Below, one piece after another: positions 26,501 to 63,187 of a stretch of DNA of 64,000 nt (position 1 is its first letter; each line of letters opens with the position of its first letter). Source of the DNA: Bathymodiolus brooksi (Eukaryota > Mollusca > Bivalvia > Mytilida > Modiolidae); contig OY804579.1 of assembly GCA_963680875.1 (NCBI GenBank), positions 18,213,804-18,277,803 of the forward strand, given 5' to 3'. Made by a program: the position numbers and the translations under genes. The notes under the pieces were generated by a model. That model was not told where the DNA came from. It worked only from the letters and a program-made list of their open reading frames with translations, and made no database searches.

Positions 26501-28058
26501 ATTAAAGCCAAACTGTACATGAATGTTCATTGGATGGTCCTCTACAAACTTTACGTTTTTGTTCTGATATGAAATTCAAAATGGCGGCTACGTCAGGACT
26601 TAGTTTAACATTGGACCCTATGGGAAAAATGTTTCAAAACGCTTCTTCTCTGAAACCACTTGGACAGTTGAAACTAAACTGCCCAGGAATGATCATTGGA
26701 AGGTCCTCTACAAAGTTTCTGTTTTTTTATGCCGATCGGAAATCCAAGATGGCTGCCACCACAGGTCATAGTATTAACACAGGACCATATGGGGAAAATA
26801 CAGAAATATATTCTTCTCTGAAGTTATTGCACTGATTGAACCTAAACTGTGCATCAATCATTGGAAGGTCCTTTACAAACTTTGTGTTTTTTATGTTGAT
26901 CGTAATTCCAAGATGACTACCACTGCAGGACATAGTTTTTACATAGGACCAATTGGTTTTTTTTATAACCAGGTGAACGATACAGGCTCTTGAAAGCCTC
27001 TGGTTTTTATTCAGCCAGGTTTCTATCATAGTTGATACAGTAAGATTATTACCTTATCATTCATAATTATCTTCACTTTTTATTTGTATATTAGTATTTT
27101 ATTATACTAGTATTTCCTTTTTATTTCAGTATTTTGTCGTTGTCATGGGAACGCTTAGTACATTTGCATGGATTGGATGTAAAATGGATAATCTGTGGAT
27201 GACTTACTTTCTTTGTAAGTATAGTTAGGGTTATGGTGTTTAACGCCACTTTCAACAAAATTTCAGTTATATCATGGCAGTCAGTTTTATTGGTGGAGGA
27301 ACCGGAGAAAGCCACTGACATGCCGCAAATCACTGACAAACTTTATCACATAATGTTGTATTGAGTACACCTCATCATGAACATGATTTTGACTCACAAC
27401 TTTTTTTTCTAGTCAAGTGTTAAGGTTTGACAACACCTACACAAGGTAGAGGTTTCACCAGTCAGTTTTTTTTATAACGTGCTCTTCCCTCCCCTTTAAG
27501 TCAGTAAGTAACGATATAACAGACGCATACAGAAGAAGTAATTCTAAGAATATTTTAGTATGTTTACACATACATGTACCAGCTTAAGTTTTTAGGATTA
27601 ATTTAGGGCTAGGGTTATGGTGCTGCTTAACGCCACTTTCAACAATATTTCAATTATATCGTGGCGGTCAGTTTTATTGGTGGAGGAGACCGAAGTACCC
27701 GGAGGAAACCACTGACCTGCCGCAAGTCACTGACAAACTTTGTCACGTAATGACTATGTTGTATGGAGTACACCTCACCATAAGCAGGATTCAAACTCAC
27801 AACGTTAGTGGTAATAGGCACTGATTGCATAGGTAGTTATAAATCCAACTACCATATGATCATGACCACGACAGCCCCTAGGATTAATTGAGACTTATTT
27901 CATATTTCCTATGTAATTTTATTTTTCTTATAGCGAACTTCATCTTGTTGGTGCCTGGAATCAGACAGAATGGAATTCTTCAGAAGTACTTTGGCAGATT
28001 AGCTCATTTCATCAAGACATTAATTCAAGGAAGGGTCAAGAAGTTCAAATCCAATTAG
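14503..28058 (+). CDS. ARL6IP1: ADP-ribosylation factor-like 6-interacting protein 1
   Basis: ER membrane protein of the reticulon-like hairpin type, which shapes ER tubules (family knowledge). Coding exons: 14503-14529, 17270-17415, 18444-18560, 19120-19237, 27130-27214, 27934-28058. Sum 618 bp = 205 aa (human 203). All later junctions are GT-AG in phase. The first exon (MAEAETNEM, donor GTAGCT) is the least certain; it is chosen because it keeps frame and starts MAE like the vertebrate protein. Hydrophobic segments at ~47-62, 70-88, 128-144 and 149-165 form two hairpins. Hallmarks are LEGWREV, DFLVPLV, RPKMYF and [15 protein letters not shown]. The C-terminus KKFKSN fits a KxKxx ER-retrieval pattern. 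Intron 5 (19238-27129) is inflated to 7.9 kb by two tandem-repeat elements. Confidence 0.93.
14841..15028 (-). repeat. LINE-like 3' tail fragment, minus strand
   Basis: (ACAAT)n followed by ATTCCAATTAGGGTCCCTCAA and a body ending TATATAAATAAATAAATAAA. It is the inverted match of 13495-13666. The pair flanks the UBE2S/ARL6IP1 promoter. It lies in ARL6IP1 intron 1. Confidence 0.6.
15142..15404 (-). repeat. V-SINE (RUDI-like), minus strand
   Basis: Starts GGTGTTTAATACCACTTTC, then V-domain GGTGGAGGAAACC and a B-box complement GGGATTTGAATTC, and ends in the head region ACGATCACGGCCACGACG. It lies directly next to the 712 bp TIR element. Confidence 0.75.
15413..16124. mobile_element. 712 bp hAT-like MITE with 8 bp target duplication
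   Basis: Imperfect terminal inverted repeats (GGTTTCAGGTTGATTCGGCC at the left; GGCCGGATCGACCTGATACC at the right), flanked by exact 8 bp direct repeats AATAAAAT (15405-15412, 16125-16132). Subterminal iterations of a GGCC(G/C)...TCGA...TTGGG motif occur three to four times at each end. No transposase. An 8 bp duplication is typical of the hAT superfamily; that assignment is inference. It lies in ARL6IP1 intron 1. Confidence 0.8.
16858..16965. repeat. Tandem duplication, ~54 bp x 2
   Basis: ATTAAATGTTA(T/A)ATGTGTAA...GTTTTGTCGAACA(A/T)TGAA occurs twice, head to tail. It lies in ARL6IP1 intron 1. Confidence 0.8.
18033..18290 (-). repeat. V-SINE (RUDI-like), minus strand
   Basis: GGTGCTTAATGCCACTTTC start, V-domain, B-box complement GGGTTTCGAATTC, and ACGATCACGACCATGAAGG end. 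It lies in ARL6IP1 intron 2. Confidence 0.7.
19460..21178 (-). repeat. Second-subfamily V-SINE split by element B
   Basis: The SINE starts GGTGTTTAATGCCACTTTCAG (19465), with GACCAGTTTTAGTGGTGGAGG, and stops at GAGTGCACCC. It resumes at ~21075 with TTTGTAATTTACAAAGC, B-box complement GCGCGAACCCACG, and ends GAGCCACCCGGGCCC. The copy at 34071-34342 is the same subfamily, uninterrupted, which proves the 1.45 kb insertion. Confidence 0.8.
19621..21074 (+). mobile_element. Pearl/Helentron-like element, copy B
   Basis: Starts TTAGCTCACC and ends in an 8 bp stem-loop AGGCTCAG-TGGG-CTGAGCCT followed directly by CTAG. The head hairpin is TGACCC-AAA-GGGTCA. A second, partial head begins at ~20467, so the copy is a partial dimer. 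The body has 120-130 bp repeats with CTCCTCTGAAAC, TTGGCCAAATGGA and CCTCTATAAAG. It lies in ARL6IP1 intron 5. No coding capacity. Confidence 0.75.
22081..27003 (+). mobile_element. Pearl/Helentron-like element, copy C with ~13-14 units of 332 bp
   Basis: Begins TTAGTTCACC with the hairpin TGGACC-AAA-GGTCCA and ends AGGCTCTTGAAAGCCT-CTGG. The landmark AAGATGGCC recurs at about 22431, 22760, 23092, 23755, 24087, 24419, 24752, 25084, 25416, 25748, 26080, 26414 and 26747, a period of ~332 bp. Each unit is two diverged ~166 bp halves. A block of five units is repeated at an offset of 1,661 bp (e.g. 23912 matches 25573, 24091 matches 25752). The open frames of up to 230 codons restart in every unit and shift with T-run length; they are repeat artefacts. 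It lies in ARL6IP1 intron 5. Confidence 0.85.
27228..27395 (-). repeat. Degenerate V-SINE, minus strand
   Basis: GGTGTTTAACGCCACTTTC start, GGTGGAGGAACCGG domain. Truncated before the full tRNA head. It begins ~15 bp inside ARL6IP1 intron 6's sister position, just after the exon ending at 27214. Confidence 0.65.
27608..27884 (-). repeat. V-SINE (RUDI-like), minus strand
   Basis: Starts near GGTGCTGCTTAACGCCACTT and contains GGAGACCGAAGTACCCGGAG. Ends CATGACCACGACAGCCCC. It lies in the last ARL6IP1 intron, about 50 bp before the final exon. Confidence 0.7.
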
Positions 28059-38284: not shown

Positions 38285-38450
38285 TTTTGTACCTGTTCCA
38301 AGCCATTTCTGGATTTTCAATGCCATACATCGTGGTCTTTTGTTTGTTCAATTGCTTGAATGAAGTGAGAGGTAGTTGTTCGTTCTGTAGATATCGGTGG
38401 AATTGCTGACCACCACTGTTAAAACTATTTTTCTTCAAAATGTATACTAT
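38285..38450. repeat. Dispersed repeat abutting the CARD exon
   Basis: Shares GTGGTCTTTTGT, GTTGTTCGTTCTGTAGATATC-like and TCGGTGGAATTGCTGACCAC blocks with 12100-12245 and 55885-56030. It ends about 15 bp before the likely splice acceptor (TATTCCAG, ending ~38466) of the CARD exon. Confidence 0.6.
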
Positions 38451-38478
38451 TAATTGTATATTCCAGAAAAAAGAAACT

Positions 38479-40497
38479 ATGGCAGCAAAATACAGCACAG
38501 TGTGCATCACCAAAAATCTTGTGTTTATCAAGGAAAATATAGCTTCTGTGGACAGAGTGTTAGACTTGCTTCTAGAAAATGACGTCATACAGATGGCACA
38601 AAGGGAAGATATTATTGCAAAGACACCAGGAGAACGGGTCCACAGTATGATTGAAATAGTCCTGAAGCGTAGAGCACAACAGATATTTATTGACTCCTTA
38701 AAAAAGACTGGACAAACGCTTATAGTGGACAGGATTTTAGCAACACAGAAGGAAGTGTCTGGTGAGAAATTATGAAGACGTCTCAAAAATACATGTACCC
38801 AATGATATCACAATTTTGTGATAACAATTTCTTGCATCAAAAACATTCTCTCATTAGAACGAATCGGTCATTGTTTCTAGACAGCAGCATGTACTCCATT
38901 TCGACCATTCAAACGTTTCGACCACAATATTTCAGCAATACAATTCAGTCCTCTATTTATATATAATCTGCTAGATGTCATATCATTAGCAAAGTAATCA
39001 GATTATATATATAATGTTTGTTGTATCTCTTTTTGTTTATTTGCAATTTCGTGTCTCGTCCGTTATGAGATGTACTGCGTACCCTTGGCGAGCACATGGG
39101 TTCACCGCGGTTGTTTGGTGCATGAGGTCCGTGTTGTTTATCTTATTATCGGTTTTCTCTAATGTTTATTGATGCAATGTTACGTGATTACGTTCGACAG
39201 TGACTTACGGACAATATGTACTAGCACAAAAATTGTGGTTATTCGAAAGGATCCAACATCGTACTCATTCTATCAACATAATATCAGTAAGCGGTAATTG
39301 TCAGTTGATTATGTGAGCAATGAAAAACTAAAGTTTAAATAATACCGAAATGTACACAAAAAGTAAAGCTACCCTCAATGTGTGGCAACTTTAACAGATC
39401 TTCGTCTTAGCCGTATGTATTCATTAGATATTATAGTTGTGTACTAGTTACCACGATACGAACGGTGATGTACCACGGTATTAGTTAATTTGTCCAAGTT
39501 TGGTGTACTGAATAGTTGTACCACAATAGCCTGTAGTTTGTCACACTGATAGGAAAATATAATTCTGTGGTTTTTTTTTCTATAAATACTTCATCTCTTA
39601 TCCTGTAATGTTCGAATTCCACACTGTGGTTTTATGGGGCCAAACCTCTCCACTTAGTGAAATGATGCGGTCATGCAAATGACTACTACTTATGAATAAA
39701 ATGCCAACCCTTGCATAATTAATTGGATGGGCAGCGTAGATATCAAATTTAGTGCACACGACGCGTTTCTGCCCGGGAATAATTTTCATCAGGTACACCC
39801 GAAATCGAAAGATTGGAAAGCCAAATAATTTACAGTTTTGGGAGTAAAGAACGTTCTAATAGTGAACATAATGCATTTAATCTTGGCGACACAGAATATG
39901 TCATATTTAAAACATTATAGTTCTGTTAAAAAGAGCCAATGACATTAATACAAACGTATATATCTAATTTAGTGCACACGGCACGTTTCTGGAATAACCT
40001 TCATCAGGTAGGTTCATATTCAAAAGACTGGAAAGCTAAAATAATTTAAATGTTCTTGTGAGCAATAAAACCAAAGGGCCTAAACAGAATTCTATCGTTT
40101 AAATACATATATATGTTAGATAGTACTACACAAATCCATTGGAGGACATACAAGGAAAACAATAGTTAACTTTGATCCAAAATATAATTGACAATACAAT
40201 GTATCACCTTTCATCTGTATGATTATAAATATACGAAAACTTCATAAAATATTCATGCATCGTTTCTTTTGTGGATTAGGATATGTCTGATCTTCACATT
40301 TGTTGGTAACCGGATTTTGCTTCAAGAATGCAAACATAAGGATAACATTTTTCTAATCTGTGAAATGTACACCAAGCAAAATTACGAATGATGGTGGATG
40401 AGAAAGTATTTTTTCTATTGATGTGCAACTTATTTCAAAATCTATTTGTTTTATTTCAGGTCAGAATAGGGAACCAAAACTACACACGGCAAGATAA
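38479..40497 (+). CDS. Small CARD-only protein
   Basis: Two coding exons, 38479-38761 and 40460-40497, join in phase (donor GTGAGA, acceptor TTTATTTCAG): 321 bp = 106 aa with stop TAA. Residues ~5-95 match a caspase-recruitment domain: IKENIASVDRVLDLLLENDV, then a variable loop, TPGERVHSMIEIVLKRR, and the closing LKKTGQTLIVDRIL helix. CARDs bind each other in apoptosis and innate signalling (family knowledge); nothing else is present, so this would be an adaptor or a decoy. The start is taken at ATG 38479, because a good acceptor (TATTCCAG) ends just upstream at ~38466, implying a non-coding 5' exon. An alternative upstream ATG at 38440 would need the exon to extend through that acceptor. Which CARD subfamily it belongs to cannot be told from the sequence alone. 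Confidence 0.8.
38970..39590. other. CARD gene intron, unremarkable part
   Basis: Intron sequence. A fragment with GTACCCTTGGCGAGCACATGG and following T-rich text resembles a common bivalve dispersed repeat (compare 57237-57420), but only loosely. Confidence 0.35.
39610..40050. repeat. Dispersed repeat cluster in the CARD intron
   Basis: GGTTTTATGGGGCCAAACC...GTGAAATGATG (39630-39720) recurs at 42358-42470. The TATCAAATTTAGTGCACACG...CGTTTCTG...TTCATCAGGTA block occurs twice (39738-39800, 39960-40010). Confidence 0.6.
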
Positions 40498-42074: not shown

Positions 42075-42245
42075 AACAAATACCAAACTGTTGGAACAAT
42101 TCCAAAATACCACACTGTTGGAACAATTCCAAAATACCACACTGTTGGAGAACAATTCCAAAATACCACACTGTTGGAACAATTCCAAAATACCACACTG
42201 TTGGAACATTTCCAAAATACCACACTGTTGGAACAATTCCAAAAT
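42075..42245. repeat. 27 bp minisatellite, ~6-7 copies
   Basis: The unit ACTGTTGGAACAATTCCAAA + ATACCAC is repeated, with one 2 bp insertion that shifts frame. GGAA and TTCC form an inverted pair in each unit. A plus-strand frame crosses it (peptide NNSKIPHCW, then IPKYHTVGT after the shift). Confidence 0.85.
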
Positions 42246-43489: not shown

Positions 43490-46400
43490 GATTTATTTTC
43501 CAATATCTCCCTACTACCACACAAGTGGAGGGATAGAAATGTTTTCTAATATCTCTCTACTACCACACATGTGGAGGGATAGAAATGTTCTCCAATATAT
43601 CCCTACTACCACACAAGTGGAGAGATAGAAATGTTCTCCAATATCTCCCTACTACCACACAAGTAGAGGAACAAAAAGATCTCCAATATCTCCCTACTAC
43701 CACACAAGTGGAGGGATAGAAATATTCTCCAATATATCCCTAATACCACACACCTGGAGGGATAGAAATGTTCTCCAAAATCTCCCTACTACCACACACG
43801 TGGAGGGATGAAAATGTTCTCCAAAATCTCTCTACTACCACACATGTGGAGGGATAGAAATGTTCTCCAATATATCGCTATTACCACACACGTGGAGGAA
43901 TAAAAATATTCTCCAATATCTCCCTACTACCACACAAGTAGAGGAATAAAAAGATCTTCAATATCTCCCTACTACCACACACGTGGAGGGATAGAAATGT
44001 TCTCCAATATCTCCCTACTACCACACAAGTGGAGGGATAGAAAATTATCCAATACATCCCTACTACCACATACGTGGAGGTATAAAAATATTCTCCAATA
44101 TCTCCCTACTACTACACAAGTAGAGGAATAAAAATATTCTCCAATATCTCCCTACTACCACACAAGTGGAGGGATAGAAAATTCTCCAATACATCCCTAC
44201 TACCACACACGTGGAGGTATAAAAATATTCTCCAATATCTCCCTACTACCACACAAGTAGAGGAATAAAAAGATCTCCAATATCTCCCTACTACCACACA
44301 CGTGGAGGGATAGAAATGTTCTCCAAAATCTCCCTACTACCACACAAGTGGAGGGATAAAAATGTTCTCCAAAATCTCCCTACTACCACACACATGGAGG
44401 GATAGAAATATTCTCCAATATATCCCTAATACCACACACCTGGAGGGATAGAAATGTTCTCCAAAATCTCCCTACTACCACACACGTGGAGGGATGAAAA
44501 TGTTCTCCAAAACCTCTCTACTACCACACATGTGGAGGGATAGAAATGTTCTCCAATATATCCCTATTACCACACACGTGGAGGAATAAAAATATTCTCC
44601 AATATCTCCCTACTACCACACACGTGGAGGAATAAAAATATTCTCCAATATCTCCCTACTACCACACAAGTAGAGGAATAAAAAGATCTCCAATATCTCC
44701 CTACTACCACACAAGTAGAGGGATAAAAATGTTCTCCAATATCTCCCTACTACCACACAAGTAGAGGGATAAAAATATTCTCCAATATCTCCCTACTACC
44801 ACACAAGTAGAGGAATAAAAAGATCTCCAATATCTCCCTACTACCACACACGTGGAGGGATAGAAATGTTCTCCAATATCTCCCTACTACCACACAAGTA
44901 GAGGGATAAAAATGTTCTCCAATATCTCCCTACTACCACACACATGGAGGGATAGAAATGTTCTCCAATATCTCCCTACTACCACACAAGTAGAGGGATA
45001 AAAATATTCTCCAATATCTCCCTACTACCACACAAGTAGAGGAATAAAAAGATCTCCAATATCTCCCTACTACCACACAAGTAGAGGAATAAAAAGATCT
45101 CCAATATCTCCCTACTACCACACACGTGGAGGGATAGAAATGTTCTCCAATATCTCCCTACTACCACACAAGTGGAGGGATAGAAAATTCTCCAATACAT
45201 CCCTACTACCACACACGTGGAGGTATAAAAATATTCTCCAATATCTCCCTACTACCACACAAGTAGAGGAATAAAAAGATCTCCAATATCTCCCTACTAC
45301 CACACAAGTAGAGGAATAAAAAGATCTCCAATATCTCCCTACTACCACACACGTGGAGGGATAGAAATGTTCTCCAATATCTCCCTACTACCACACAAGT
45401 GGAGGGATAGAAAATTCTCCAATACATCCCTACTACCACACACGTGGAGGTATAAAAATATTCTCCAATATCTCCCTACTACCACACAAGTAGAGGAATA
45501 AAAAGATCTCCAAAATCTCCCTACTACCACACACGTGGAGGGATAGAAATGTTCTCCAAAATCTCCCTACTACCACACACGTGGAGGGATAGAAATGTTC
45601 TCCAAAATCTCCCTACTACCACACAAGTGGAGGGATAAAAATGTTCTCCAAAATCTCCCTACTACCACACACGTGGACGGATAAAAATGTTCTCCAAAAT
45701 CTCTCTACTACCACACATGTGGAGGGATAGAAATGTTCTCCAATATATCCCTACTACCACACACGTGGAGGAATAAAAATATTCTCCAATATCTCCCTAC
45801 TACCACACAAGTAGAGGAACAAAAAGATCTCCAATATCTCCCTACTACCACACACGTGGAGGGATAGAAATATTCTCCAATATATCCCTACTACCACACA
45901 CGTGGAGGTATAAAAATATTCTCCAATATCTCCCTACTACCACACAAGTAGAGGAATACAAATATTCTCCAATATCTCCCTACTACCACACAAGTAGAGG
46001 AATAAAAAGATCTCCAATATCTCCCTACTACCACACACGTGGAGGGATAGAAATGTTCTCCAAAATCTCCCTACTACCACACACGTGGAGGGATGAAAAT
46101 GTTCTCCAAAATCTCCCTACTACCACACATGTGGACGGATAGAAATGTTCTCCAAAATCTCCCTACTACCACACACGTGGAGGGATACAAATATGCTCCA
46201 ATATCTCTCTACTACCACACATGTGGAGGGATAGAAATGTTCTCCAATATATCCCTACTACCACACATGTGGAGGAATAAAAATATTTTCCAATATCTCC
46301 CTACTACCACACACGTGGAGGTATAAAAATATTCTCCAATATCTCCCTACTACCACACAAGTAGAGGAATAAAAATATTCTCCAATATCTCCCTACTACC

Positions 46401-46885
46401 ACACAAGTGGAGGGATAGAAATATTCTCCAATATCTCCCTACTACCACACAAGTAGAGGAATAAAAATATTCTCCAATATCTCCCTACTACCACACAAGT
46501 AGAGGAATAAAAATATTCTCCAATATCTCCCTACTACCACACACGTGGAGGAATAAAAAGATCTCCAATATCTCCCTACTACCACACACGTGGAGGGATA
46601 GAAATGTTCTCCAAAATCTCCCTAATACCACACACGTGGAGGGATAGAAATGTTCTCCAAAATCTCCCTAATACCACACAAGTGGAGGGATAAAAATGTT
46701 CTCCAAAATCTCCCTACTACCACACAAGTGGAGGGATAAAAATGTTCTCCAAAATCTCCCTACTACCACACACGTGGACGGATAGAAATGTTCTCCAAAA
46801 TCTCCCTACTACCACACACGTGGAGGGATAAAAATGTTCTCCAAAATCTCCCTACTATCACACAAGTGGAGGGATAAAAATATGT
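43490..46885. repeat. 3.4 kb minisatellite, 45-46 bp unit, roughly 75 copies
   Basis: The unit reads CTCCAATATCTCCCTACTAC + CACACACGTGGAGGGATAGAAATGTT with variants. Main variants: ACACGTGGAGG (contains the palindrome CACGTG), ACAAGTAGAGG and ACAAGTGGAGG, combined with either GGGATAGAAATGTT or GGAATAAAAAGAT. Around 44933-45530 a five-unit block repeats at 227 bp. Frames of 60-77 codons on the minus strand are repeat artefacts. It lies in the spacer between the coiled-coil locus and the amine oxidase gene. Confidence 0.95.
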
Positions 46886-49900: not shown

Positions 49901-52900
49901 TCATTTTCGAATTTTATAATAATACACTGCAAACAATAAAGATGATCCAATGACAGTTCCTATCCCCATTGAAAACTTTAGATAAGAATAAGACCGTTTT
50001 GTTGGCATTTTGTTAGTAGATACTGTGAATGCATCCTGCATTTCTTCATAATCAATAGCTTGAGGGTGAAATCTATAAATAACCTCTAACGCCGCTCTCT
50101 TTCCTGCCTGCACTGCTCCATTCATAAAGCCACACCATCTAGTGGCAGATTCTGAACCCGCAAAATATATTCTGAAAAAATATGGTGCTTTAATTATAGT
50201 TTGGACAGAGTATATTAACATCTACATTCTTTACATTTATTGATAAAAAAACATTTTAATGCAAGGATATTTAAATTCCTTATCATAAGCTAATGTACAG
50301 AAAAGTAACTTCAACAATGCAATGATATCAGGCTCACGAAAAGCTATGACATCTTGTCAAAGATTAATACACAGACAAATCAACAGGCTCAAAGAAAGTC
50401 ATATAACCATACTTAACAAAAGACAAGTAATAAATCTTCTAAGTTGAAGGAAAGTAATGTCATTTTGTAAAATCTTAATACCAGTATGCAGCCAGGTCAT
50501 TGTGCCTAAGGATAGTTAAATTATTTTGTCAACAGTTTATTGTTAAACAGTCAAGTCATCACACTCAAGAAAAGTCATATCATTAGGCTAATAAAAAAAG
50601 TCATGCTGTCTTGTCAATTACATTATTGTTTTTAATAGAAATGTCAAATTGGGTTTTATGTCACACTGACAGATAATTTTCAGTATCAGTCAGTCCGTTG
50701 ATATTTAAAATATCATTCTTGAAACTTGAAACTTTATTAAATACTGTATAACCGGTAATTTCTGCGGTGTGAAATTTCTGCAGTTTTGGTCTAAAAAGAA
50801 GACATTTAATTTTTGCAGATTGAAAATCTCGGCACCGAAAAAAAATTGTTTCTATTACAGGAAGCAACAACTGAAGCGATGTTACGATAAACAACTGGTG
50901 CACAGGACAGTGGTTCTTAGAAGTAAAAACATATTTAGTTCTTTGGAAAGTTTTCAAAGGTTACAGCTTCTGAATACGCATTTGGTTAACTTCAAATTTG
51001 TCTTAAGAAACTATTTGTTCACTGTTTTCTCGATCTAGATTGTAAACAGGAAATACAAAGTCAACAGTTGGATTGATATCGGTATAATTTTTGATATTTC
51101 GGATATATATTTTTCATGTCGAATTTTCATACTTTATATCATATAGCAATTTTTTAAAAAGAATTATGATTAGAAACAATTATATTCAATTCTTTTAGTA
51201 TAATGTAGATATAAAAACTTGGGTTAACCGGAATTCTACTACCAGTACATTTCTATCTGTTTGGTTTTTAGATGAACCCTGAGATCACACAGTTTGATAT
51301 TATTAAATCGAAACTACTACAACAATAAAAAAAAACACTAATGTTAATTTATGTAATAACAATTTTAAACATTGCTCTAATAAACTTTATTATGATTGTA
51401 AACATTTAATCATGTGATTGTTTCAATTATTGTCGGTGTCAGCTTGATACAATCGTATTTCTTTATCTGGATTAATTGTAATATTAACAATTAAAAATCA
51501 TCATGTCACAGCTAAATAACCTTTAATTCATGTTGTGTAAACACTTATAAAGTACCAGTTGTTTTTATCTGGATATAGTAATTAGGACTAATTAAATATT
51601 TGACACTTACGGTGGAGTATGGAGTTGGAGTTAGAGTTTGAAAAGGTATTTTGTACGGGACATTAAACATTTATTTTACATAATATTCTGCAATTTTAAT
51701 TTCTGCGGTCTGGAGTTGACCGCAGAATACCGCAGAAATTACCGGTTATACAGTATCTCAGTCGCAGATAACTGCGAAACAGGAGACAAAATACATACAA
51801 TCACATACAAACAAACAGCTAAACAGAGATTAGACAACAATCTAATTATTCAATTGACAAGACTCACTACCTTTAAACATATATATAGATATAACTGGCC
51901 TAATAATATCTCTCGACCAGCACGTGCTGATTTTGTAAATCTTTCACGTGGTCATTACAAATTGATCCCTTAGTGGCATTGATGTTACAGACATATTTCA
52001 AAACAGTGGTGATGTTTTTCTAACATATAGAGAAAATCTATTCAAAAGTGGAATATTACAGTGCGACAATAAACCTTACATTTTATGATTAGTGGGTACA
52101 TCAATGAAGTAAGTCGGAATAAATTTTGAACGCATCTGTACTAGTGTCGGATTTTTACAAACAAACAAATAGTGAAATTCATTACCAATCAATTGATCTT
52201 CACATAAAGTGCAATATCTCTCATCTGATGGTATATTCCGCCATCTTCCGGTTTCGATGGGGAGTTTTAAGTTTACAGGTACGTAATTTACTTATAGATA
52301 CTCTGTTAATCGCTGTGAATTTTAACAGATATGGCTCAATGAGATCAAAGATAAAATGTACAAATTACTGATCAAAACAAAATACAAAGACAAGTCATCA
52401 GACTCAGAGAAATGAAATACTTGGTCCAGATCAATACAAGATTAGCATAGCAAAATAACCTATTTTGTCACAGTGGTGAATTAAGAGCATAGTATAGTAC
52501 ATGTAATTTGAAATGGTTACCTACAAAATATACATTCAATTGGATTTTGGAACTGTTTTGACAGGGTGGTATTTTCTGTTTTTTCTATTAGATTTTGGAA
52601 CTGTTCTGACAGGGTGGTATTTTCTGTTTTTTCTATTAGATTTTGGAACTGTTCTGACAGGGTGGTATTTTCTGTTTCTTTCTCCTCATTTTACTACTAC
52701 AACTTACACACATGATAGATTAAAGATGCTTAAAACATGTGAATTAATTGTCAACTGAAACGACAAAAACATTTAATTACCTGTCAAAGGAATCACGTAA
52801 TCCACTAGCAAAATAAGGCATGGATCCAGGTGCTGCACTGCAGATAGGGCTACCTTCAATGTAAGGTTCCAATCCCCAGTCTTTTTCCCTGTAATCTTTG

Positions 52901-55900
52901 TATTTCCAAACATCTTCACCAAAAAATTCAGACAAACTTTTCAATATTGCAGACTGTCTATCTTCTGACTTTTTTTGAAAGAAAACAAATCAATCAGCAC
53001 AATCTTTATGTTTTTATACATTAATTGAAAAAAGTGCAATTTTTATCTCAAAGAAATCAAAATCATTCACAAAGTAGGTAAAAAGATTAAAAATTTGATC
53101 TCTACGCTGACATTGTTTCAACAAAATGTAAATAAATAAGTCATATGTGTTAATCCTTCAAAACTTGGGAATGGGAGAACTCGGTCTGATGGAGGTGAAC
53201 GCAGAGGAGGGATTTTGTGTAACACATAGAAGCAATGTACTTGTACATGTATTTAGATGTCATTGATGATTCTTGTTCGCATCTAAATGAACAAAACGAT
53301 GAAAATTCACATAAATCATATTCATTTCTTTAAGGCCACCTAGGTTTTCTTGGCTGTGATCGAATGGTAGTTAGATTGACATCTTTCCATGCAATCACAG
53401 CCTAAACGACTAAAGTTCTGAGTTTGATTCTTGCTCTGATGAAGTGTCCTCAATACAACTTTATACAGTAAAGTATGACAGTGACTTGCACTAGGTGGTT
53501 GGTTTTCTACAGGTACTTCACTCTTCTTCATAAATAAAGTAGAACAAAGCAGCATAGCTGAAATATTGTTGAAAGTGACTTTAAACATACAATAGTCATA
53601 TTTATTGTGTAAAGCTGTATTGTCCTAAATAATTCTGTGAGATGTTTTGTTGCTGAGAGATTTTTCTTGTCAATAAATTTTTGCTTCTACATGTACTTCA
53701 GATTACCTGCTAAGCTTGCAGGCATGGAGGAAATATTACCTGAAGATGAGAATGAAAGACAAAGTTTACTACAATGTCTTCAAATATCACCAATTAATTA
53801 ATATTAGTGTAAAATGAGTCCAGAAATAGTGGAAACTGGTCCTGTTTGAGCAAATTTTCTACAGATCAGTGAACAAAGGTCTTGCTTGAGAAAATTTTGT
53901 ACTTCTACATACAAGTTGAACTGTAAAATCCAGAATTTCAATAAAAACAGAATTAGGTTTCTACTAATTATACGATGGTTGACACAAATGGTCTAATTAA
54001 TAAAGTACCCACTGATTGTTGCTGCCACTGAACTGCTTGTTTGCCACCTACAAATCCTACTAGTGCAGCATTTCCTTTAGATGTGGTGGCATCATAGACA
54101 ATACTTAGTGGTCCTTCATCACAACCCTCCATATCTGTTTTTCCTCCAATAGTCACAATCTCTCCAGATTGTCCAGCTTCTCTCCAAAAAGCCTGTAAGT
54201 ATACTGATTTAACTATTTAATGTGAGCAATGTACTGCACTCTGCTTGTATCTGTACGAGGCTTTCAATTTAATAATAAATACGAAGGGATTCCTTTTATA
54301 GAAAGGGTAAATAAAACATGACGGAAAATAAATTATTCAGATGAACACAGACAAATGTGGACATTTCGAAAAATTTGTAATATTTCCCATAAATAAATTA
54401 CTTTATAATATATGAAAAAAGAACTAATTCAAATAGTTTTAAATCCAATTAACTGCAGATTTGTTTCAGAAATATCATGAATTTATAAGAGAGAGTGAGT
54501 GAACGATCAATGAAAGTGTTTATAACTATTGTATGTAACATATTCCTGAAACTGTCATTTGCTTATCAAAATGTAAAAACCAGACTTGTCGGGTATGGAA
54601 ACTTTACATGAGAACATAATCTTTTTAGGAAACTAAGATTGGCAGGTTGGATTTGAGATCAGACTTAAAACTTACTTTATCATATGTAATAATAGCTTTG
54701 TTCAGTAAACTTACTTTATCATACGTCATAATAACTTCGTTCAGTAAACTTACTTTATCATACGTCATAATAACTTCGTTCAGTAAACTTACTTTATCAT
54801 ACGTAATAATAACTTTGTTCAGTAAACTTACTTTATCATACGTAATAATAACTTTGTTCAGTAAACTTACTTTATCATACGTAATAATAACTTTGTTCAG
54901 TAAACTTACTTTATCATAAGTAATAATAACTTTGTTCAATAAACTTACTTTATCATAAGTAATAATAACTTTGTTCAGTAAACTTACTTTATTATACGTA
55001 ATAATAACTTTGTTCAGTAAACTTACTTTATCATATGTAATAATAACTTTGTTCAGTAAACTTACTTTATCATACGTAATAATAACTTTGTTCAGTAAAC
55101 TTACTTTATCATATGTAATAATGATTTTGTTCAGTAAACTTTCTTTATCATATGTAATAATAACTTTGTTCAGTAAACTTACTTTATCATACGTAATAAT
55201 AGCTTTGTTCAGTAAACTTACTTTATCATACGTAATAATAACTTTGTTCAGTAAACTTACTTTATCATATGTAATAATAACTTTGTTCAGTAAACTTACT
55301 TTATCATACGTAATAATATCTTACTTTATCATACGTAATAATAACTTTGTTCAGTAAACTTACTTTATCATACGTAATAATAACTTTGTTCAGTAAACTT
55401 ACTTTATCATACCTAATAATAACTTTGTTCAGTAAACTTAGTTTATCATACGTAATAATTACTTTGTTCAGTAAACCTACTTTATCATATGTAATAATAA
55501 CTTTGTTCAGTAAACTTACTTTATCATATGTAATAATAACTTTGTTCAGTAAACTTACTTTATCATATGTAATAATAACTTTGTTCAGTAAACTTACTTT
55601 ATCATACGTAATAATAACTTTGTTCAGTAAACTTACTTTATCATACGTAATAATAACTTTGTTCAGTAAACTTACTTTATCATACGTAATAATAACTTTG
55701 TTCAGTAAACTAATTGGCATTCTCTTCATTATTTCAGTTTTTGGTGCAGGAAGACTTGGCTGGAAATTCATCTTATCTGTGAACAGTTTGTTCATATAAT
55801 AATTGTCACATAAAAACTCCATAAACAATCATGAAAAAACTGTTTCAAAATTTAAAATAGTGTATTATTTGTGTCTATCACAAACAAGGGTCTGGATTTT

Positions 55901-58900
55901 CAATGCGATATGTTGTGTTCTTCTTTTGTGTTCAGTGAATTAAGGAGAGAGATGATTGTTTGTTTTGTTGATATTGGTGGAATTGTTGACCATCACTGTT
56001 CAAAAATTCTTTTCATAATTGATTATGTAATCTTATGCTATAAATGTCTATATAAATATATGACCCCACGATGACCTTTATACCTTTAAGAAATTTTCAA
56101 CAAAACACTGTTGCATTCTTGTAATTCATCAATTTCATTAAAAGAAAGTATTATATATTTCCAGATGAGCAGAGAATGGTTGAGACTATATTGTAAAATG
56201 TTATTTTGATAAAAATGGCAGATTTCAAGAATGAGATGAGGTGATACAAAAATATATATTAATACACATAAATTGACTCTACATTGAAAGAGTAATGACA
56301 TAATTTAATTTGGAGGCATAAATACAAAGTTCCATCATTATCAACGGAAACAATATTAAAACGTACTAAGGGGCCATCATGGCCATGATCGTATGGTAAT
56401 GGGATTTTTAACTACCAATGAAATCAGTGTCTATCACCACTGATGCTGTGAGTTCGAATCTCGATCAGGGCGAGGTGTACAACATTATGTGATAGTTTAT
56501 CAGTGTCTTGCAACAGGTCGGTGGATTTCTCTGGGTCCTCCAGTTTCCTCCACTAATAAAACAGACAGCTGCGAAATAACTGAAATATAGTTGAAAGTGG
56601 CATTAAACACCAACAAACAAACAAACAAACAAACAATTAAAAGTACTTACATGTCATATTAGGGGGTGTGGCTATTATCACAGATTTACATTTAAATACG
56701 GCACCATTTAGTGTTTTAACCGTTACAAAATCTTTTGTCTGAAAATAAATCAAGAATAAAAACTGTTAAACGTTTTCTACACAAAACATGTATCGCTACT
56801 TCTTTTAATAATATATGGACAGACTGACAAGTATAAAAAAACAAGCTCCATTTTTAACTATTTGCTGATCGGCCAAGAAAGACTGGATTCAATTTATATG
56901 AAAGATGAGAACAAATCATATTTATCTACAGCTCTACACAGACTGGACTAGATTTAGCCATCATTCTTATAAATATGAGTAATAAAAACAATAAATATGA
57001 GATTCATGCTATATTGCATACTGTTAATATCAAATCTAGAATTTAGGAACAGTTGCAAATAATAAGAATTCATAAATTTGAAATACTAAAATTGGTTTAT
57101 TTTGTGTACAACGATAAAAAGATTTATAAATCTTGAAAATCAGGTTCTGGAAAAATGCAAATCTAAGTTAAAATCTAAATTAATCTGGTTCTTTTCTCAT
57201 TTATGACTTATCACCAGATTTTGTAACAAGAGTATCATGATGGGGGCCACATGTGGAGGAGGAACTGCTTACCTTTCCAAAGCATGAGTACACCCTCGGA
57301 TTTAATTTCCTGTGTATTGTTTTGTAGAACATTGTTTGTCCTTTTGTCCTTTCTCTTTTTGCCATTATATTGTCTGTCCTTCTTCGATTTACTTCTTCTG
57401 ATTACCCTTTGGTATCTTCAAACTCTTCTTAAGGGGGTACCATACACTACAGGGAGATAACTCTTTAAAATCAGTTGAACGTTTTGATCATATGATGTTT
57501 GTATGCAGATTTCAAGCATCTCGGTGATCAAAACCACAGAGAGAAAAGCTGATATGTGGCTAGTGAATTTATAGCTCTGAGTCTGTTGGTTGGAATTTGT
57601 TAAAATTATGATATTTATTACAGTGGATATATTCAAACACACTGCCAAAAAAATAAGAAAATTAAACGAGCAGATCTAATTTTACCTGAAGTGTATGGTT
57701 CCACCTTTATTAAAACAATATTATAAAATTTAGTTAAATTTCATCTAGAGTTGTTTAGTATTGACAGATTGATTGTTTATTAATATAATTAAAATCAGAT
57801 CTCCTCACTTGCAGCTGCATCATGTACTGTAATAAAAATGTAAGTAACTATAAGAAATATAACATACTTGTTCTATACTGATTACTGGGTGACCTAGTTT
57901 CACAGCACCCTTTCCTAGTTTTTCTGCCAATCTGATGGAAATCTGTTGTGCTCCTCCCTACATTTAGAAAAGATCAAAAATGAAATATCAAGTATCTCTT
58001 CCACAAACTGAATTATCTATATTTAAATACAGCCTCAAGTGAAATGTAACAAGGGACAAGTTAAAAGTAAATATATTTCATCTTCAATGTTAATTTTGCA
58101 TTAATTGCAAATTCAATTTAGAAAGGAAAAGATCATCTCATTTTATTTCCAAAAGAAGATAGTGGCATAGCAAAAAATAAAATGCAGAAAGGTAAATCTA
58201 GGCCAGAATCTTAACAAGCAAATTAAAAGCTATATTTTGCATTTTGTGATACATGTCCATGTAGAAGCTTTTGCACAAATGCTACAGTAAATTGAGTAAT
58301 ATAATGTTATGGTTATGGTGTTTAATGCCACTTTCAACAATATTTCAGTTATATCGTGGTGGTCAGTTTTATTGGTGGAGAAAACCTGAATACCTGGAGA
58401 AAACCACACACCTGCTGCAAGTCACTGACAAATTTATCACATAATGTTGTATCGAGTACACCTCGCCATGAGTGGGATTCGAACTCACAACGTTAGTGGT
58501 GATATTGACAGAGTAATTTAAAATGAAAATACATGTAACAATAATAAATAACATTAAATCAATTTTATTAGAGAGACAACAAACTATTTTATTTTAGATT
58601 CATAAACCAGACAAAATTGTATTTTCTACAGCAAAATAAAGCAGTAGTGCATGTTTCATATTTCAAACATATGTGCTGAGGTTCAGTTTTGGAGTCCATC
58701 AATATCCATCAAAATATCTATATCCTTTCACCTGCTATCAAGTGAGTGAGTGAGTGATTGTTGTTTAATGCCAACTCAGCAATTTTTCAGCTATATCATG
58801 GTGAGAACAAGTTAATTTTCAATGAGATGATGATAAGTTTCGCTTTGTACTAGACCAACATGCTTAGTTGGATTCTTATAGTGCTAGCTCACTGAAACAA

Positions 58901-61900
58901 CAAACCATGGGTGGACATGTCGCCCCACTCAGATACATTATCCTGATTCTGAGCCAAACGGACCTTCTCAATAATGCTGCTTGCTTAGCGAAAATTTTAT
59001 AGTCTTTAGTTTGACCCGATCTGGGCTTTATCCCACGATCTACCACACTCGAGGTGAGCATGCTAACCATTACAACACCGATGCGGTTGACCTGTATTCA
59101 AAATCGCTATTCATAATTACAGATGATTGAATAATAACCTTTATTTTTAATCCTTGTCCACAGTCCTCTCCTGCCTCAACCATCTTCTTAAAAGATCCAG
59201 CCGCGTTCGTGTATGACAAATAATATAACAGTGAAATCTGTGATAATTCTACTCCCATCATGCATCTGGTGGCTGACACAATAGAATCTTTTGCACCTAT
59301 AATGAACTTTTAAATACAATCCAGAACATTTTATCTATTCTGTTCTCTGCAATTTCATTGTGTTTATGAGGTATTGATACTGACAACAAAAGCATTATTA
59401 AACCATTAAAAAGCATGTATAAACAACATATATAGATTAGTATGGGGCCCCTATGCTCGTGGTCCAGCGGGCATTTTCCCAGTGTGCCCATGAGTTAAGA
59501 TGGCACTGATTATATTGTAGTGATCAGTTTATTGGCAGATAAAACCAGAATGGACATGAATATACAGTATTAAATATTGACCTTCTGCATTAAGTCATCT
59601 ACAAACTTTATAACATAGGGTTGTGTAGAGTGTTCATAACAAACCATAGTGGTATTAACACTAATGCAGTCAAACCTATATATAAAGACCACTCAAGGGA
59701 ACCTGAAAATTTGGCCTTTATGAGCAGTTTGACTGTAATTACATTGGTAAAAATACACTTCTGACTATGGTAGTACCATACAATCACGATATATATCCTC
59801 AGCAAGAAAAGTAAAGAAAAGCACAAAATATTTCACAATAATCTTCATGTATTTTTGGTAAAGGGAGAAAAACTATTTAGTTACTAAGACAACTGAGATC
59901 TATTTTCAATTTTGATCTTAAAAAAATATTTTTATCAAAGACATGACCTACATTTTCAATGAGCTCCTTCTGTCTTGTTACTTGTTATAATTTTAGAATA
60001 TACCCATTTTTAATATTTGCATTAATTTTTCCTACAACTAGGTATATACCTTTGGTCCAAGCATTTTGGTTGATAAATTCTTCCACTGTTAATGAATCCC
60101 ATTTTTCAGCATGTGGACATCTTTTATATGGCTCATTAATATCTGCCATCTTTGCCATTTTTTCAAGCTAAAAAAACATAATTATTACACTAGACCCCAA
60201 AACAAAATTATTACACTAGACCCAGTATGTTCTCTGTTATTAGTAAATTTATCTTTTACAATTCATTTTAACTACCCGTAAAAGAATTTAACATTATAAA
60301 TTTTTTTCACTTCGAAAAAAAAATGTATACATATGTATAAGGTAGCTGCAATAATGTAGCTCCTGTGACAAACTTGTGTCTCGGCAGAGCTACAACGCGG
60401 TCCCATTCGTCACAATGGAGCAAAAAAAAAGTTGCAGTTGAAACATAAAAACTCACTATTTACGCTTCAAACATTTCATTATAACTATTACTGATGATCC
60501 CAGTCCTTGTTAAATCGGTTTGGCTGAGAAATATATGCTTTTCAAAGGTAGCAACAACCTTGTTCAAATTTATCGGTCGTTTTCCATAACCGGAAACTAC
60601 GGAAGGCGGAGCTTTTCTAAATATGGTATTTCTTACTACACGCTGATGTAAACATTCACGCCTAAATCGCCAAATATGGTATCGACATCCAAATAGTGAG
60701 GCCGGAAATGACGAAATTCAAAATGTTCAGAGAGAAGATTTTTATTTTGTGGGAATTACATTCTAAAATACTGGTAGGTGATAAAAACTTGTTATAATAA
60801 TGGACAAAAGGAAAGGTCATGTCTTATTATTGATAAATGCAGGCGTCAGAAGCTCTGTAAGCGAGCGCAAAAAATCTTGGCGGCTGCTCCATTACGTGTG
60901 ATGGCATCCCGTTATAACCCTTGCGAGTAAGCGAGCATTTAGGGTTTTATTATTAGAACTAATGTATAAGGGTACTAAACACTGTAATTGCACTCTGACT
61001 AAATGAGAACACTAATGGATAGCTGTAATGAATAAATATAAAGTGAACTGTATATTTATACACACAATGCAACACTTTCAGCAACTTTTCATGTTTTATA
61101 TCTTTCTGGGTGTAGGATTCTTAGGTTGTTGCAATGTGTCTGTTTTTGACCTTTAATGATCTACGTCCTTTAGGTTAAAATGTCAAATTTGGACCTTCAA
61201 AGGTTTTGGATGCTTCAGTTATTGCAGAGTGTCTGTTGTTGGACCTACATCATGGGCGTAGGAAGCTTAAGTTGTGCAAAGTGTCTGTTTTGGACCATCA
61301 AGCATATAGGATGGTCAGGTTGTTGCAAAGTGCCTATTTTGGACATTCAAGGGTTTAAGGTTTCTATTGGGTCCTGTTTTGCCTGAAATTAAGAAGAATA
61401 TAAATTTAATGATCAACTATACCTTCTTAAGTAATGAATTCAAGTCTAACAGTGCCAACACAGACAAAGATGGAATGGCTGATATATAGCTTGATATTTT
61501 GTGACCTCCAAGCTGCATAAACTTTTTCCCTGTTATATACTGGTTGTAGGTTTCCAAATCTAATTCTCTCAACAGATCCAACACATCTACTTGAGATCTG
61601 AAAAAAAATATAGTAAAAATAAATATACTCAGTTACACACAGTCTTTGCATTAATTTTTTTCACCTACTTGCTCGAAAGCCAAAATGGCAGGTGGGTTAG
61701 CGTGAAGACTGGGTACAGTAAAGAATATGCATTCTGTTAGGTTTTATTGTTAAATAATTTTGCAACAACCAAATTCATATTATTTATTACAATATGAAAA
61801 TTATTTTCTATTTCAAACGTTCTTATAGATGTACAGATTTGTTTTTTTTACCACAAAAAAATGAAAATGATTACTTTAGCATTGAAAGATAGAGTACTAG

Positions 61901-63187
61901 TACTTACGTGCTGACCCATTGTCCACCAAGATCAAAGATATCAGTCCCAGAAGCTGTCTTAAGTGGAACCGACAATGTCCTTCCACCAACTCTATCTAAA
62001 AAATATTTACTATTACATTGTAGTAAGAAAGGCTATGCCACCAACTCTATCTAAAAAATATTTACTATTAGTAAGAAAGTCTATGCCACCAACTCTATCT
62101 AAAAAATATTTACTATTAGTAAGAAAGGCTATGCCACCAACTCTATCTAAAAAATATTTACTATTAATAAGAAAGGCTATGCCACCAACTGAACTCTATC
62201 TAAAAAATATTTACTACCGGTATAACCAGTAGTAAGAAAGGATATGGATGTATATGAACATGAGAGACTATCCAACATTACACTTAGACTATGGAAAATT
62301 GCTTATAGATCAAATGAAAAGCTATCAAATAGTTAATTTTTTCATTCATCAAACATTGGATAGCTCATCTGCTATCTATCCTGTGGGTATTGGTTTTAGC
62401 CACTGGAATATTACCCAAAGATAATGATAACAATGAATGCCAAGTGATGACAATGACTCACATAAACTTTTGGTTCAAGTGAGCTAAAAAGTAGCATTTT
62501 TTCTTTATGCATAGAATGCACATGTACCCACAGTATCTTGACGTTTTATATGGCGAAATAGAGAAAAATCTGTATAAAATCTGTATATTATATATATAAA
62601 GACTATAATATACAGATTTTTCTCTATTTCGCCAGATAAAACGTCAAGATACTGTGATGTACCACATATGTGCATCCAGACCTGGAAGAAATAATTGGGG
62701 TCCCATTCCAACAATTAGTAATCAAAACCATTACTATAAAATATGCCACGGCTCCAGCAAGTGGCATAAAAAGCCGTCGGACGGCAGAGGAATCTCGTAC
62801 TACCATAATACAAGACGATCGCAATTTTTTTTCGATCGACCTCTAAAAAGGAACGCGCACTAAATTTGATATATATGGTTTTGTTCGATTTAATAGGGAT
62901 TTTTTTTACATGTTGCAATACTTTTGGCCACATATTCACAGGCACTTGCACATACTGTACGTTTTAATTTTATTGTGGTGAATTTTTAGTTTTTACTTTT
63001 GTTTTGAAAGTGTACTATGCCATGAGGCATGATGCCTACAATCATGTGATAGCTATAAACTAACTTAACCTTTAGCCTCTAGAACAACGTATTTCAAATT
63101 TGGAACCCTTTTTGAAATAGTGTAAGCTGATGTTAGACCAGAAATTCCAGCTCCAATTACCACAACATCAAAAATTTCGTCCGCCAT
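49901..63187 (-). CDS. Monoamine-oxidase-like flavin amine oxidase
   Basis: FAD enzyme that oxidises amines to aldehydes, probably anchored in the mitochondrial outer membrane as MAO is. Coding exons (minus): 63070-63187, 61908-61995, 61423-61597, 60050-60167, 59139-59296, 57868-57957, 56651-56738, 55676-55776, 54013-54192, 52781-52968, 49901-50171. Sum 1575 bp = 524 aa (human MAO-A 527). All phases agree. The exon 9/10 junction may instead be 54009 / 52964, giving the same length. Residues 7-17 are the dinucleotide site [11 protein letters not shown], then [39 protein letters not shown] (Lys aligned to MAO-B Lys296), and [14 protein letters not shown] hydrophobic tail segment lies at ~501-520, followed by KIRK. 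Ser412 (in [11 protein letters not shown]) sits where MAO has the FAD-binding Cys, and Phe replaces a cage Tyr in CGFMNGA. Introns 1 and 8 hold boundary minisatellites. Confidence 0.93.
50741..51756. mobile_element. 1,016 bp element with perfect 27 bp terminal inverted repeats
   Basis: ATACTGTATAACCGGTAATT + TCTGCGG at 50741-50767, and its exact complement at 51730-51756. It has an inner short palindrome TCTGCGGTC...GACCGCAGA near the right end. TA at both tips could be a Tc1/mariner-type target duplication. No transposase seen. It lies in amine oxidase intron 10. Confidence 0.75.
52540..52680. repeat. 48 bp tandem repeat, 3 copies
   Basis: GATTTTGGAACTGTT(C/T)TGAC + AGGGTGGTATTTTCTG... is repeated three times. 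It lies in intron 10 of the amine oxidase gene, ~100 bp from exon 10. Confidence 0.9.
53330..53592 (+). repeat. Degenerate V-SINE, plus strand
   Basis: GTGATCGAATGGTAGTTAGA head, degenerate B box GAGTTTGATTCTTGC, and tail GCTGAAATATTGTTGAAAGT. It lies in intron 9 of the amine oxidase gene. Confidence 0.6.
54667..55713 (-). repeat. 39 bp minisatellite made of the exon 8 end plus its splice donor
   Basis: The minus-strand unit AGTTTACTGAACAAAGTTAT + TATTACGTATGATAAAGTA (39 bp, 13 codons: [13 protein letters not shown]) is repeated about 27 times. The first unit is the real end of exon 8 (ending GATAAA at 55676), followed by GTAAGT. All later units lie in intron 8 (54193-55675). Almost every unit keeps GATAAA|GTAAGT. 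Exceptions are a lost donor near 55441 and a changed one near 55141. A truncated unit at ~55305-55325 breaks the frame, so about ten units next to the exon remain open in frame. Confidence 0.95.
55885..56030. repeat. Dispersed repeat, third copy
   Basis: TTTGTGTTCAGTGAATTAAG, TTGATATTGGTGGAATTGTT and GACCATCACTGTT match 12100-12245 and 38285-38450. It lies in intron 7 of the amine oxidase gene. Confidence 0.6.
56369..56635 (+). repeat. V-SINE (RUDI-like), plus strand
   Basis: GGGGCCATCATGGCCATGAT start, B box GAGTTCGAATCTC, V-domain GGTCCTCCAGTTTCCTCCAC, tail GTTGAAAGTGGCATTAAACA, then (CAAA)n. It ends ~15 bp before the exon 7 donor of the amine oxidase gene. Confidence 0.75.
57237..57425. 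repeat. Fragment of a common bivalve-type dispersed repeat
   Basis: GGGGGCCACATGTGGAGGAG, TGTGTATTGTTTTGTAGAAC and a T-rich GTCC(T)TT...TTTGGTATCTTC end. It resembles a repeat I associate with mussels; the match is from memory. It lies in intron 6. Confidence 0.4.
58308..58505 (-). repeat. Truncated V-SINE, minus strand
   Basis: GGTGTTTAATGCCACTTTC to GGGATTCGAACTCACAACG (intact B-box complement). The head stops at GGTGATAT. It lies in intron 5 of the amine oxidase gene. A more decayed relative spans ~58745-59090. Confidence 0.65.
59500..59735 (-). repeat. Decayed V-SINE and CAAACCT-type repeat
   Basis: GTAGTGATCAGTTTATTGG and ATAACATAGGGTTGTG are SINE relics. AGTCAAACCTATATATAAAG with an inverted end CAGTTTGACTGTA follows. 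It lies in intron 4 of the amine oxidase gene. Confidence 0.4.
61107..61350. repeat. Degenerate ~66 bp tandem repeat, ~4 copies
   Basis: A GTTGTTGCAAAGTGTCTGTT-like motif followed by TTGGACC(T/A)TCAA recurs four times with divergence. It lies in intron 3 of the amine oxidase gene (60168-61422). The rest of that intron (60300-60960) has no recognised content. Confidence 0.6.
61980..62225 (-). repeat. ~48 bp minisatellite made of the exon 2 acceptor and exon start
   Basis: The minus-strand unit contains AATATTTTTTAG|ATAGAGTTGGTGG, i.e. the 3' splice acceptor plus the first 13 bases of exon 2. The exon-side landmark begins at 61991, 62046, 62094, 62142 and 62195, so five copies with spacing 55, 48, 48 and 53 bp. 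The first is the true exon 2 boundary (exon begins at 61995). The others lie in intron 1 (61996-63069). Confidence 0.93.
62435..62490 (-). repeat. Relic head of the pearl-like element
   Basis: CAAGTGATGACAATGACTCA and CTTTTGGTTCAAGTGAGCTA match the complement of the TTAGCTCACCTGGACCAAAGG head. It lies in intron 1 of the amine oxidase gene. Confidence 0.55.
62529..62656. repeat. 46 bp inverted repeat (hairpin), one mismatch
   Basis: Arms 62529-62574 and 62611-62656 are complementary at 45 of 46 positions (core GGCGAAATAGAGAAAAATC), with a 36 nt AT-rich loop. It lies in intron 1 of the amine oxidase gene. Confidence 0.85.

Follow-up and report, generated by a model that had tools for sequence, protein, structure and literature searches.

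How is the end of an exon chosen when the splice donor that closes it recurs, almost letter for letter, many times over in the intron that follows? This question is raised by a 64,000-nucleotide stretch of DNA from the bivalve Bathymodiolus brooksi (the window, which is the whole stretch that was analysed), on whose minus strand an intact gene for a flavin amine oxidase, with 11 exons and no stops, runs from 63187 to 49901. The parts of this gene on which the first half of the argument depends are the following.

49901 to 63187, minus strand: coding span of the amine oxidase (MAO-like) gene; 11 exons, 524 aa, introns all GT-AG, joined exons open.
55676 to 55776, minus strand: exon 8, with a length of 101 nt, of which the final 36 nt (55711-55676) represent the repeat unit within the exon.
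55675 to 54193, minus strand: intron 8, 1483 nt.
55670 to 55675, minus strand: first donor, GTAAGT, which gives the family spacing.
54676 to 55675, minus strand: donor array, made up of 25 complete copies of 39 bp and a truncated one of 25 bp, which together carry donor positions 1 to 26.
55300 to 55324, minus strand: truncated copy, 25 nt with 14 nt missing and donor GTAAGA; it breaks the exon frame and leads to a stop after VRYYYV.
54670 to 54675, minus strand: last (27th) donor, GTAAGT, followed by the unique intron sequence TTTAAGTC and taken as the original intron start.
54013 to 54192, minus strand: exon 9, which opens with GCT TTT TGG (AFW) after the acceptor TACTTACAG.

Among the matches listed by the protein search, the closest relatives of the window protein are P0001, an ENA contig of 1921 bp (98%), and proteins of Mytilus edulis and M. 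galloprovincialis (72%). The homolog set comprises the 120 listed of 927 matches, drawn from 8000 scored candidates in a protein database clustered at 90% identity. With P0001 as a proxy, assignment to the MAO family is based on an Amino_oxidase domain (PF01593, E 5.8e-59) and on a predicted MAO fold, since an AlphaFold2 model of P0001 built from 40 sequences (mean pLDDT 91.1) had human MAO-B and MAO-A as its best Foldseek matches (E 4.1e-47, TM 0.83). The flavin-site lysine of the family is not found at its aligned position. In each of the five phmmer alignments displayed, whose partners are MAO-A and MAO-B, the flavin-site lysine (Lys296 in MAO-B) falls on Asp311 of the window protein and the Glu that follows it falls on Lys312, such that the pairing of Lys296 with Lys312 proposed in the first-pass annotation is off by one. 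This lysine is no firm requirement in the wider family, because the column holds K in only 26 of the 120 listed homologs. The alignment to MAO-A also places Ser412 of the window protein over the FAD-linking Cys of GCYTAYFPPG, and the window enzyme may bind FAD non-covalently because both this Cys and the flavin-site lysine are replaced in the alignment, by Ser412 and Asp311, respectively.

Exon 8 ends in GATAAA and intron 8 starts with GTAAGT, and the array takes up the first 1000 nt of the intron with a TRF score of 1829. Its 39-bp unit, GTAAGTTTACTGAACAAAGTTATTATTACGTATGATAAA, is made of GTA and the final 36 nt of exon 8, the same composition that the first-pass annotation had described, and the annotation's central observation, a minisatellite made of an exon end together with its 5' splice donor and holding about 27 donors, is borne out by the counts obtained here, which come to 27 donor positions, 25 full copies and a single truncated one. 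The full copies carry 25 differences from their consensus over 975 sites. GTAAGT is found at 23 donor positions, each in the exact context AAA/GTAAGT and identical to the first donor, and the other four comprise one GTAGGT, one GTAAGA and two dead sites (CTAAGT and GAAAGT), with GT thus kept at 25 of the 27. The 27th donor leads into unique intron sequence, GTAAGTTTTAAGTC.

Is an array of this kind real, or are its copies an expansion introduced by the assembler? The copy number in the window is checkable only with reads, and it is here that a reading of the array as artefact finds its footing. Evidence from separate contigs came from a search with the read-through open reading frame (three matches) and a search with a small profile (eight matches), in which five proteins from short contigs carry exon 8 and the remaining three matches hold a dispersed repeat only. 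At the protein level, P0124 and P0125 are the same as the window through the tail of intron 7, exon 8 and the first units, and the truncated copy of the window closes both of them; another sequence class is represented by P0121 and P0122 (FTGKMNF, intron start VSFKSY), which pass from the unit into the same intron start, VSFKS. Extra units number two in P0124, one in P0125, one in P0121 and none in P0122; among these, the ENA contigs that hold exon 8 with two and one extra units plus the truncated copy measure 678 and 2295 bp, respectively. P0123, from a Mytilus-like contig, shows no array, a result that collapse of short reads could also give. With tandem units and the same truncated unit present in separate ENA contigs, the donor array is no artefact of a single assembly. 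Moreover, the differences among units are patchy and correlated between neighbours, and a de Bruijn graph of the window array indicates that short-read assembly shortens such an array and does not lengthen it. From the exon to the array end, the shortest path passes through no extra unit at k=25, one at k=31-41 and two at k=51; from the exon to the truncated copy, it passes through none at k=25-41, one at k=51-79 and two at k=91. Expansion by the assembler is, on this evidence, so improbable that we give it almost no weight.

The same collapse makes the copy numbers of the short contigs untrustworthy. P0121, P0122, P0124 and P0125 were considered as proof of copy-number polymorphism and rejected, because de Bruijn collapse yields 0, 1 and 2 extra units too, and P0122 was likewise rejected as proof of an empty site, since a collapsed array also gives 0 extra units. 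In viral contigs, scanned for exact occurrences of the 39-bp unit, there were 0 matches, as expected. Separately, P0121, P0122 and P0126-P0128 have in common a stretch like IRPSLRRDVLWYT.VRPSV, which in the other sequence class lies after the start of intron 8 and which recurs in other ENA contigs, one of them 265,603 bp long; it is probably a dispersed repeat inserted in intron 8 of that class.

Which of the donors, then, ends exon 8? Translation of the joined exons gives the 524-aa product from donor 1. With donors 2-10, one of these nine positions lacking GT, the protein would gain between 13 and 117 residues without loss of frame, and the frame is open with 0-9 added units, that is for donors from 55675 to 55324, and meets stops beyond; the first-pass annotation had placed the open stretch at about ten units, down to ~55325, which agrees. 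Donors 11-27 (17 of the 27 positions) reach a stop because of the truncated copy and yield a 435-aa product. Use of the downstream in-frame donors would create length-variable isoforms, with 13n residues inserted between Lys312 and Ala313 beside the flavin site. Ten donor positions, nine of them with GT, permit this, and the identity of 23 of the 27 donors means that donor strength alone gives no preference. Nor does exon size alone exclude any of units 1-4, because an exon 8 extended by them would measure 140-257 nt, which is a normal size.

The homologs argue against such isoforms. The numbering of the junction as Lys312/Ala313 is right by alignment, and no insert lies between these two columns in any of the 120 listed homologs of 927 matches (MAFFT alignment); the P-to-W span measures 17 residues in 119 of the 120, the remaining one lacking part of the span. 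The claim that the first donor gives exactly the spacing of the family thus holds across the listed set. No full-length protein with inserted units is present among these 120 of 927 matches, in a database whose clustering at 90% identity could conceal minor isoforms, since one with few units could be grouped, for example, with the 10 members of the P0001 cluster. All five exon-8 proteins also read intron sequence before or after exon 8 (P0123 by inference) and, judged by that sequence, come from unspliced DNA or RNA. In the confident P0001 model the junction falls in a tight turn (residues 281-283) that a strand (273-280) precedes and a short helix (284-287) follows, predicted to be a poor place for tens of extra residues. 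Finally, the units show no sign of coding constraint, with 5 synonymous and 9 nonsynonymous among 14 distinct change types where ~30% synonymous would be expected. Taken with the matches that proved to be dispersed repeat, these observations make length-variable isoforms very improbable.

P0001, the only long relative in spliced form, was a candidate for proof that the array allele uses its first donor. It is presumably a cDNA and is spliced at the canonical junctions, both between exons 8 and 9 and between exons 1 and 2 (LEAK/DRVGG). It was rejected as proof because it has Ile292 in common with P0122, which shows no extra unit, and because the Gly codon with which exon 8 starts in P0121 and P0122 is compatible with its Cys279, whereas the codon of the window is not; its source may be an allele or a species without a long array. 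For the array allele we infer use of the first donor from the frame, the family spacing and precedent. The first-pass annotation had offered either strict choice of the first donor or a length-variable loop at the active site. The former fits best, and the latter finds no positive evidence in the 120 insert-free homologs.

A second array lies at the other kind of boundary in the same gene and had no place in the finding of the first-pass annotation.

61983 to 62219, minus strand: acceptor array, in which the exon 2 acceptor TAAATATTTTTTAG/ATAGAGTT (slash at the exon start) occurs five times in tandem at a spacing of 48-55 bp.
61908 to 61995, minus strand: exon 2; the full protein results only from the 3'-most acceptor (exon start 61995).

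The five alternative exon starts are 61995, 62050, 62098, 62146 and 62199, and some 13 nt of exon sequence belong to each copy. Splicing to any of the four upstream acceptors would yield a product of 46-83 aa, and no insert at the exon 1-2 junction occurs in any of the 120 listed homologs. The acceptor array mirrors the donor array, in that the exon-proximal site keeps the frame at both, this being the upstream site on the donor side and the downstream site on the acceptor side. The symmetry is partly a matter of selection, because only the 3'-most acceptor keeps the protein. Of five arrays in the gene with a unit of at least 20 bp, two span a boundary (p 0.039 under random placement), an excess that is weak because the five were picked after inspection.

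Several other repeats and features were observed in the window. A 26-bp stretch is duplicated (2.0 copies) at 60173-60223 on the minus strand and leaves 5 nt between itself and the start of exon 4 at 60167, such that the sequence ahead of the exon 4 acceptor is doubled and the acceptor itself is not. The minisatellites at 42078-42245 (plus strand) and 52535-52683 (minus strand) have a common motif by eye, AAAATACCACACTGTTGGAACAATTCC and AAAATACCACCCTGTCAGAACAGTTCC, which may represent a dispersed repeat family within tandem arrays. A 46-bp repeat with about 74 copies fills 3.4 kb at 43499-46881, downstream of the amine oxidase gene, and satellite arrays with a 165/332-bp period occupy 1328-3055 and 22315-26950, their open frames alike and on opposite strands. 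An open reading frame at 38410-38775 (plus strand) has a CARD-like match to PF00619 at 23.5 bits, just under the gathering score of 23.9.

The first-pass annotation knew of no described case like the donor array; however, there are precedents in intron 7 of the human coagulation factor VII gene (F7) and in the mirages of lancelets. In F7 intron 7 (IVS7, HVR4) the donor lies in the first of a series of 37-bp repeats, and only the most upstream donor is reported to be used (PMC6627357, citing Borensztajn 2006). A 5'-to-3' scan is the model proposed for this donor, PMC2423196 citing that model only, and the repeat polymorphism is named in PMC3166910 as well. The two arrays are alike in unit size, at 37 and 39 bp, whereas F7 is reported to hold four to seven repeats (PMC3492156) and the window 27 donor positions. 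Moreover, 37 bp is not a multiple of 3, such that F7 copies would shift the frame, whereas the 39-bp copies of the window keep it. Use of the first donor in the window would parallel the reported use of the most upstream F7 donor, and the family spacing in all 120 listed homologs agrees with such use.

Lancelet mirages, reported from Adh3, the globins BflGb6 and BflGb9, TnC and PGBD5, are minisatellite-like tandem duplications over exon-intron boundaries, both 5' and 3'; they are described as length-unstable, with copy numbers that differ between haplotypes and reportedly with no disturbance of splicing (PMC3087553, PMC3902484). The window shares with these accounts the presence of tandem repeats over both donor-side and acceptor-side boundaries, and in both of its arrays the tandem unit spans the boundary and carries the splice signal. 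Its units of 39 and 48 bp also fall within the 10-160 bp given for lancelets (PMC3087553). The differences are of degree and of lineage, with 3-6 copies of 150-160 bp reported for BflGb6 against 25 full 39-bp donor copies plus 5 acceptor copies in one gene here, and with lancelets belonging to another phylum than the bivalve. Human segmentally duplicated genes offer a further comparison, in that boundary tandem repeats, like those of the window, are reported to be able to shift sequence between exon and intron, and introns to form from tandem arrays (PMC2812944). In that account novel introns arise and 66% of the intron modifications are accompanied by transcripts in which the repeat is kept, whereas among the proteins matched in the 90%-clustered database no transcript retains the window array as coding sequence. 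Among the titles and abstract openings listed by the literature search there was no mollusc case of a boundary minisatellite. The window arrays are a genuine, copy-rich and doubled example of the known mirage type and not a new type.

How could such arrays arise and yet leave the protein intact? The motif AGTTT is found at both breakpoints, at the start of the unit in the exon and, after GTA, in the intron beyond the last donor. We hypothesize that a slip between these two 5-bp matches made the first 39-bp duplication, by which one AGTTT, situated 36 nt ahead of the exon 8 end, became joined to another within the donor (GTA/AGTTT); the microhomology is only suggestive, because about 8% of random 39-bp pairs have at least 5 matching bases. 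Local duplications would then have expanded the array to about 25 copies, as the breakpoints and the pattern of the units suggest. Local duplication predicts that neighbours share variants, and sharing between neighbours exceeds that in shuffles (6 versus 2.6, p 0.018). With near-identical donors in almost every copy, the spliceosome would take the exon-proximal one, exon 8 would stay at 101 nt and the array would leave with intron 8, a course to which the frame, the family spacing and precedent all point. A mirror event at the exon 2 acceptor would have left the most downstream copy as the functional one. If, at both boundaries, the site closest to the body of the exon is chosen, the pattern fits exon definition, whereas a pure 5'-to-3' scan accounts for the donor side but not for the acceptor side. 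In-vitro splicing of duplicated donors follows proximity rules that often favour the intron-proximal site, and such a preference would predict the opposite choice to the first donor. The extra copies themselves are most likely neutral. Overall, we consider it highly probable that both arrays are neutral mirage-type minisatellites, removed with the intron through exon-proximal splice-site choice.

A different question is whether the number of copies matters to the animal. An alternative hypothesis treats the array of ~27 donors as a platform for U1, a cluster of binding sites whose copy number tunes the recognition of exon 8 or blocks early polyadenylation, such that the level of monoamine oxidase follows. 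The 23 exact GTAAGT sites within about 1 kb invite this hypothesis, as does human F7, where repeat number reportedly correlates with mRNA level (PMC3492156). The units themselves speak against it, as they show no sign of donor conservation: the 9 donor columns of 39 hold 3 of the 25 changes (5.8 expected) and 3 of the 14 types (3.2 expected), these being small numbers. The Mytilus-like P0123, in which no array was seen, stands against it as well, in so far as collapse has not mimicked that result. A role of the array as a U1 platform that sets exon 8 recognition, and hence the animal's monoamine oxidase level, is therefore unlikely. Were it true, it would, together with the acceptor array in intron 1, give a single mussel gene splice-site arrays of variable length at donor and acceptor boundaries alike.

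Neutral minisatellites spliced out by exon-proximal choice remain the preferred reading, and mirage minisatellites now extend from lancelets and one human gene to a bivalve. The assembled copy number exceeds those of F7 (four to seven) and BflGb6 (three to six), the two systems to which the comparison applies. For gene annotation, exon ends beside such arrays may be mispredicted. More broadly, a gene with a near-identical donor array and a near-identical acceptor array is a natural test of splice-site choice. Under a 5'-to-3' scan the first site would be used in each array, under exon definition the exon-proximal one in each, and under intron definition the opposite of the latter.
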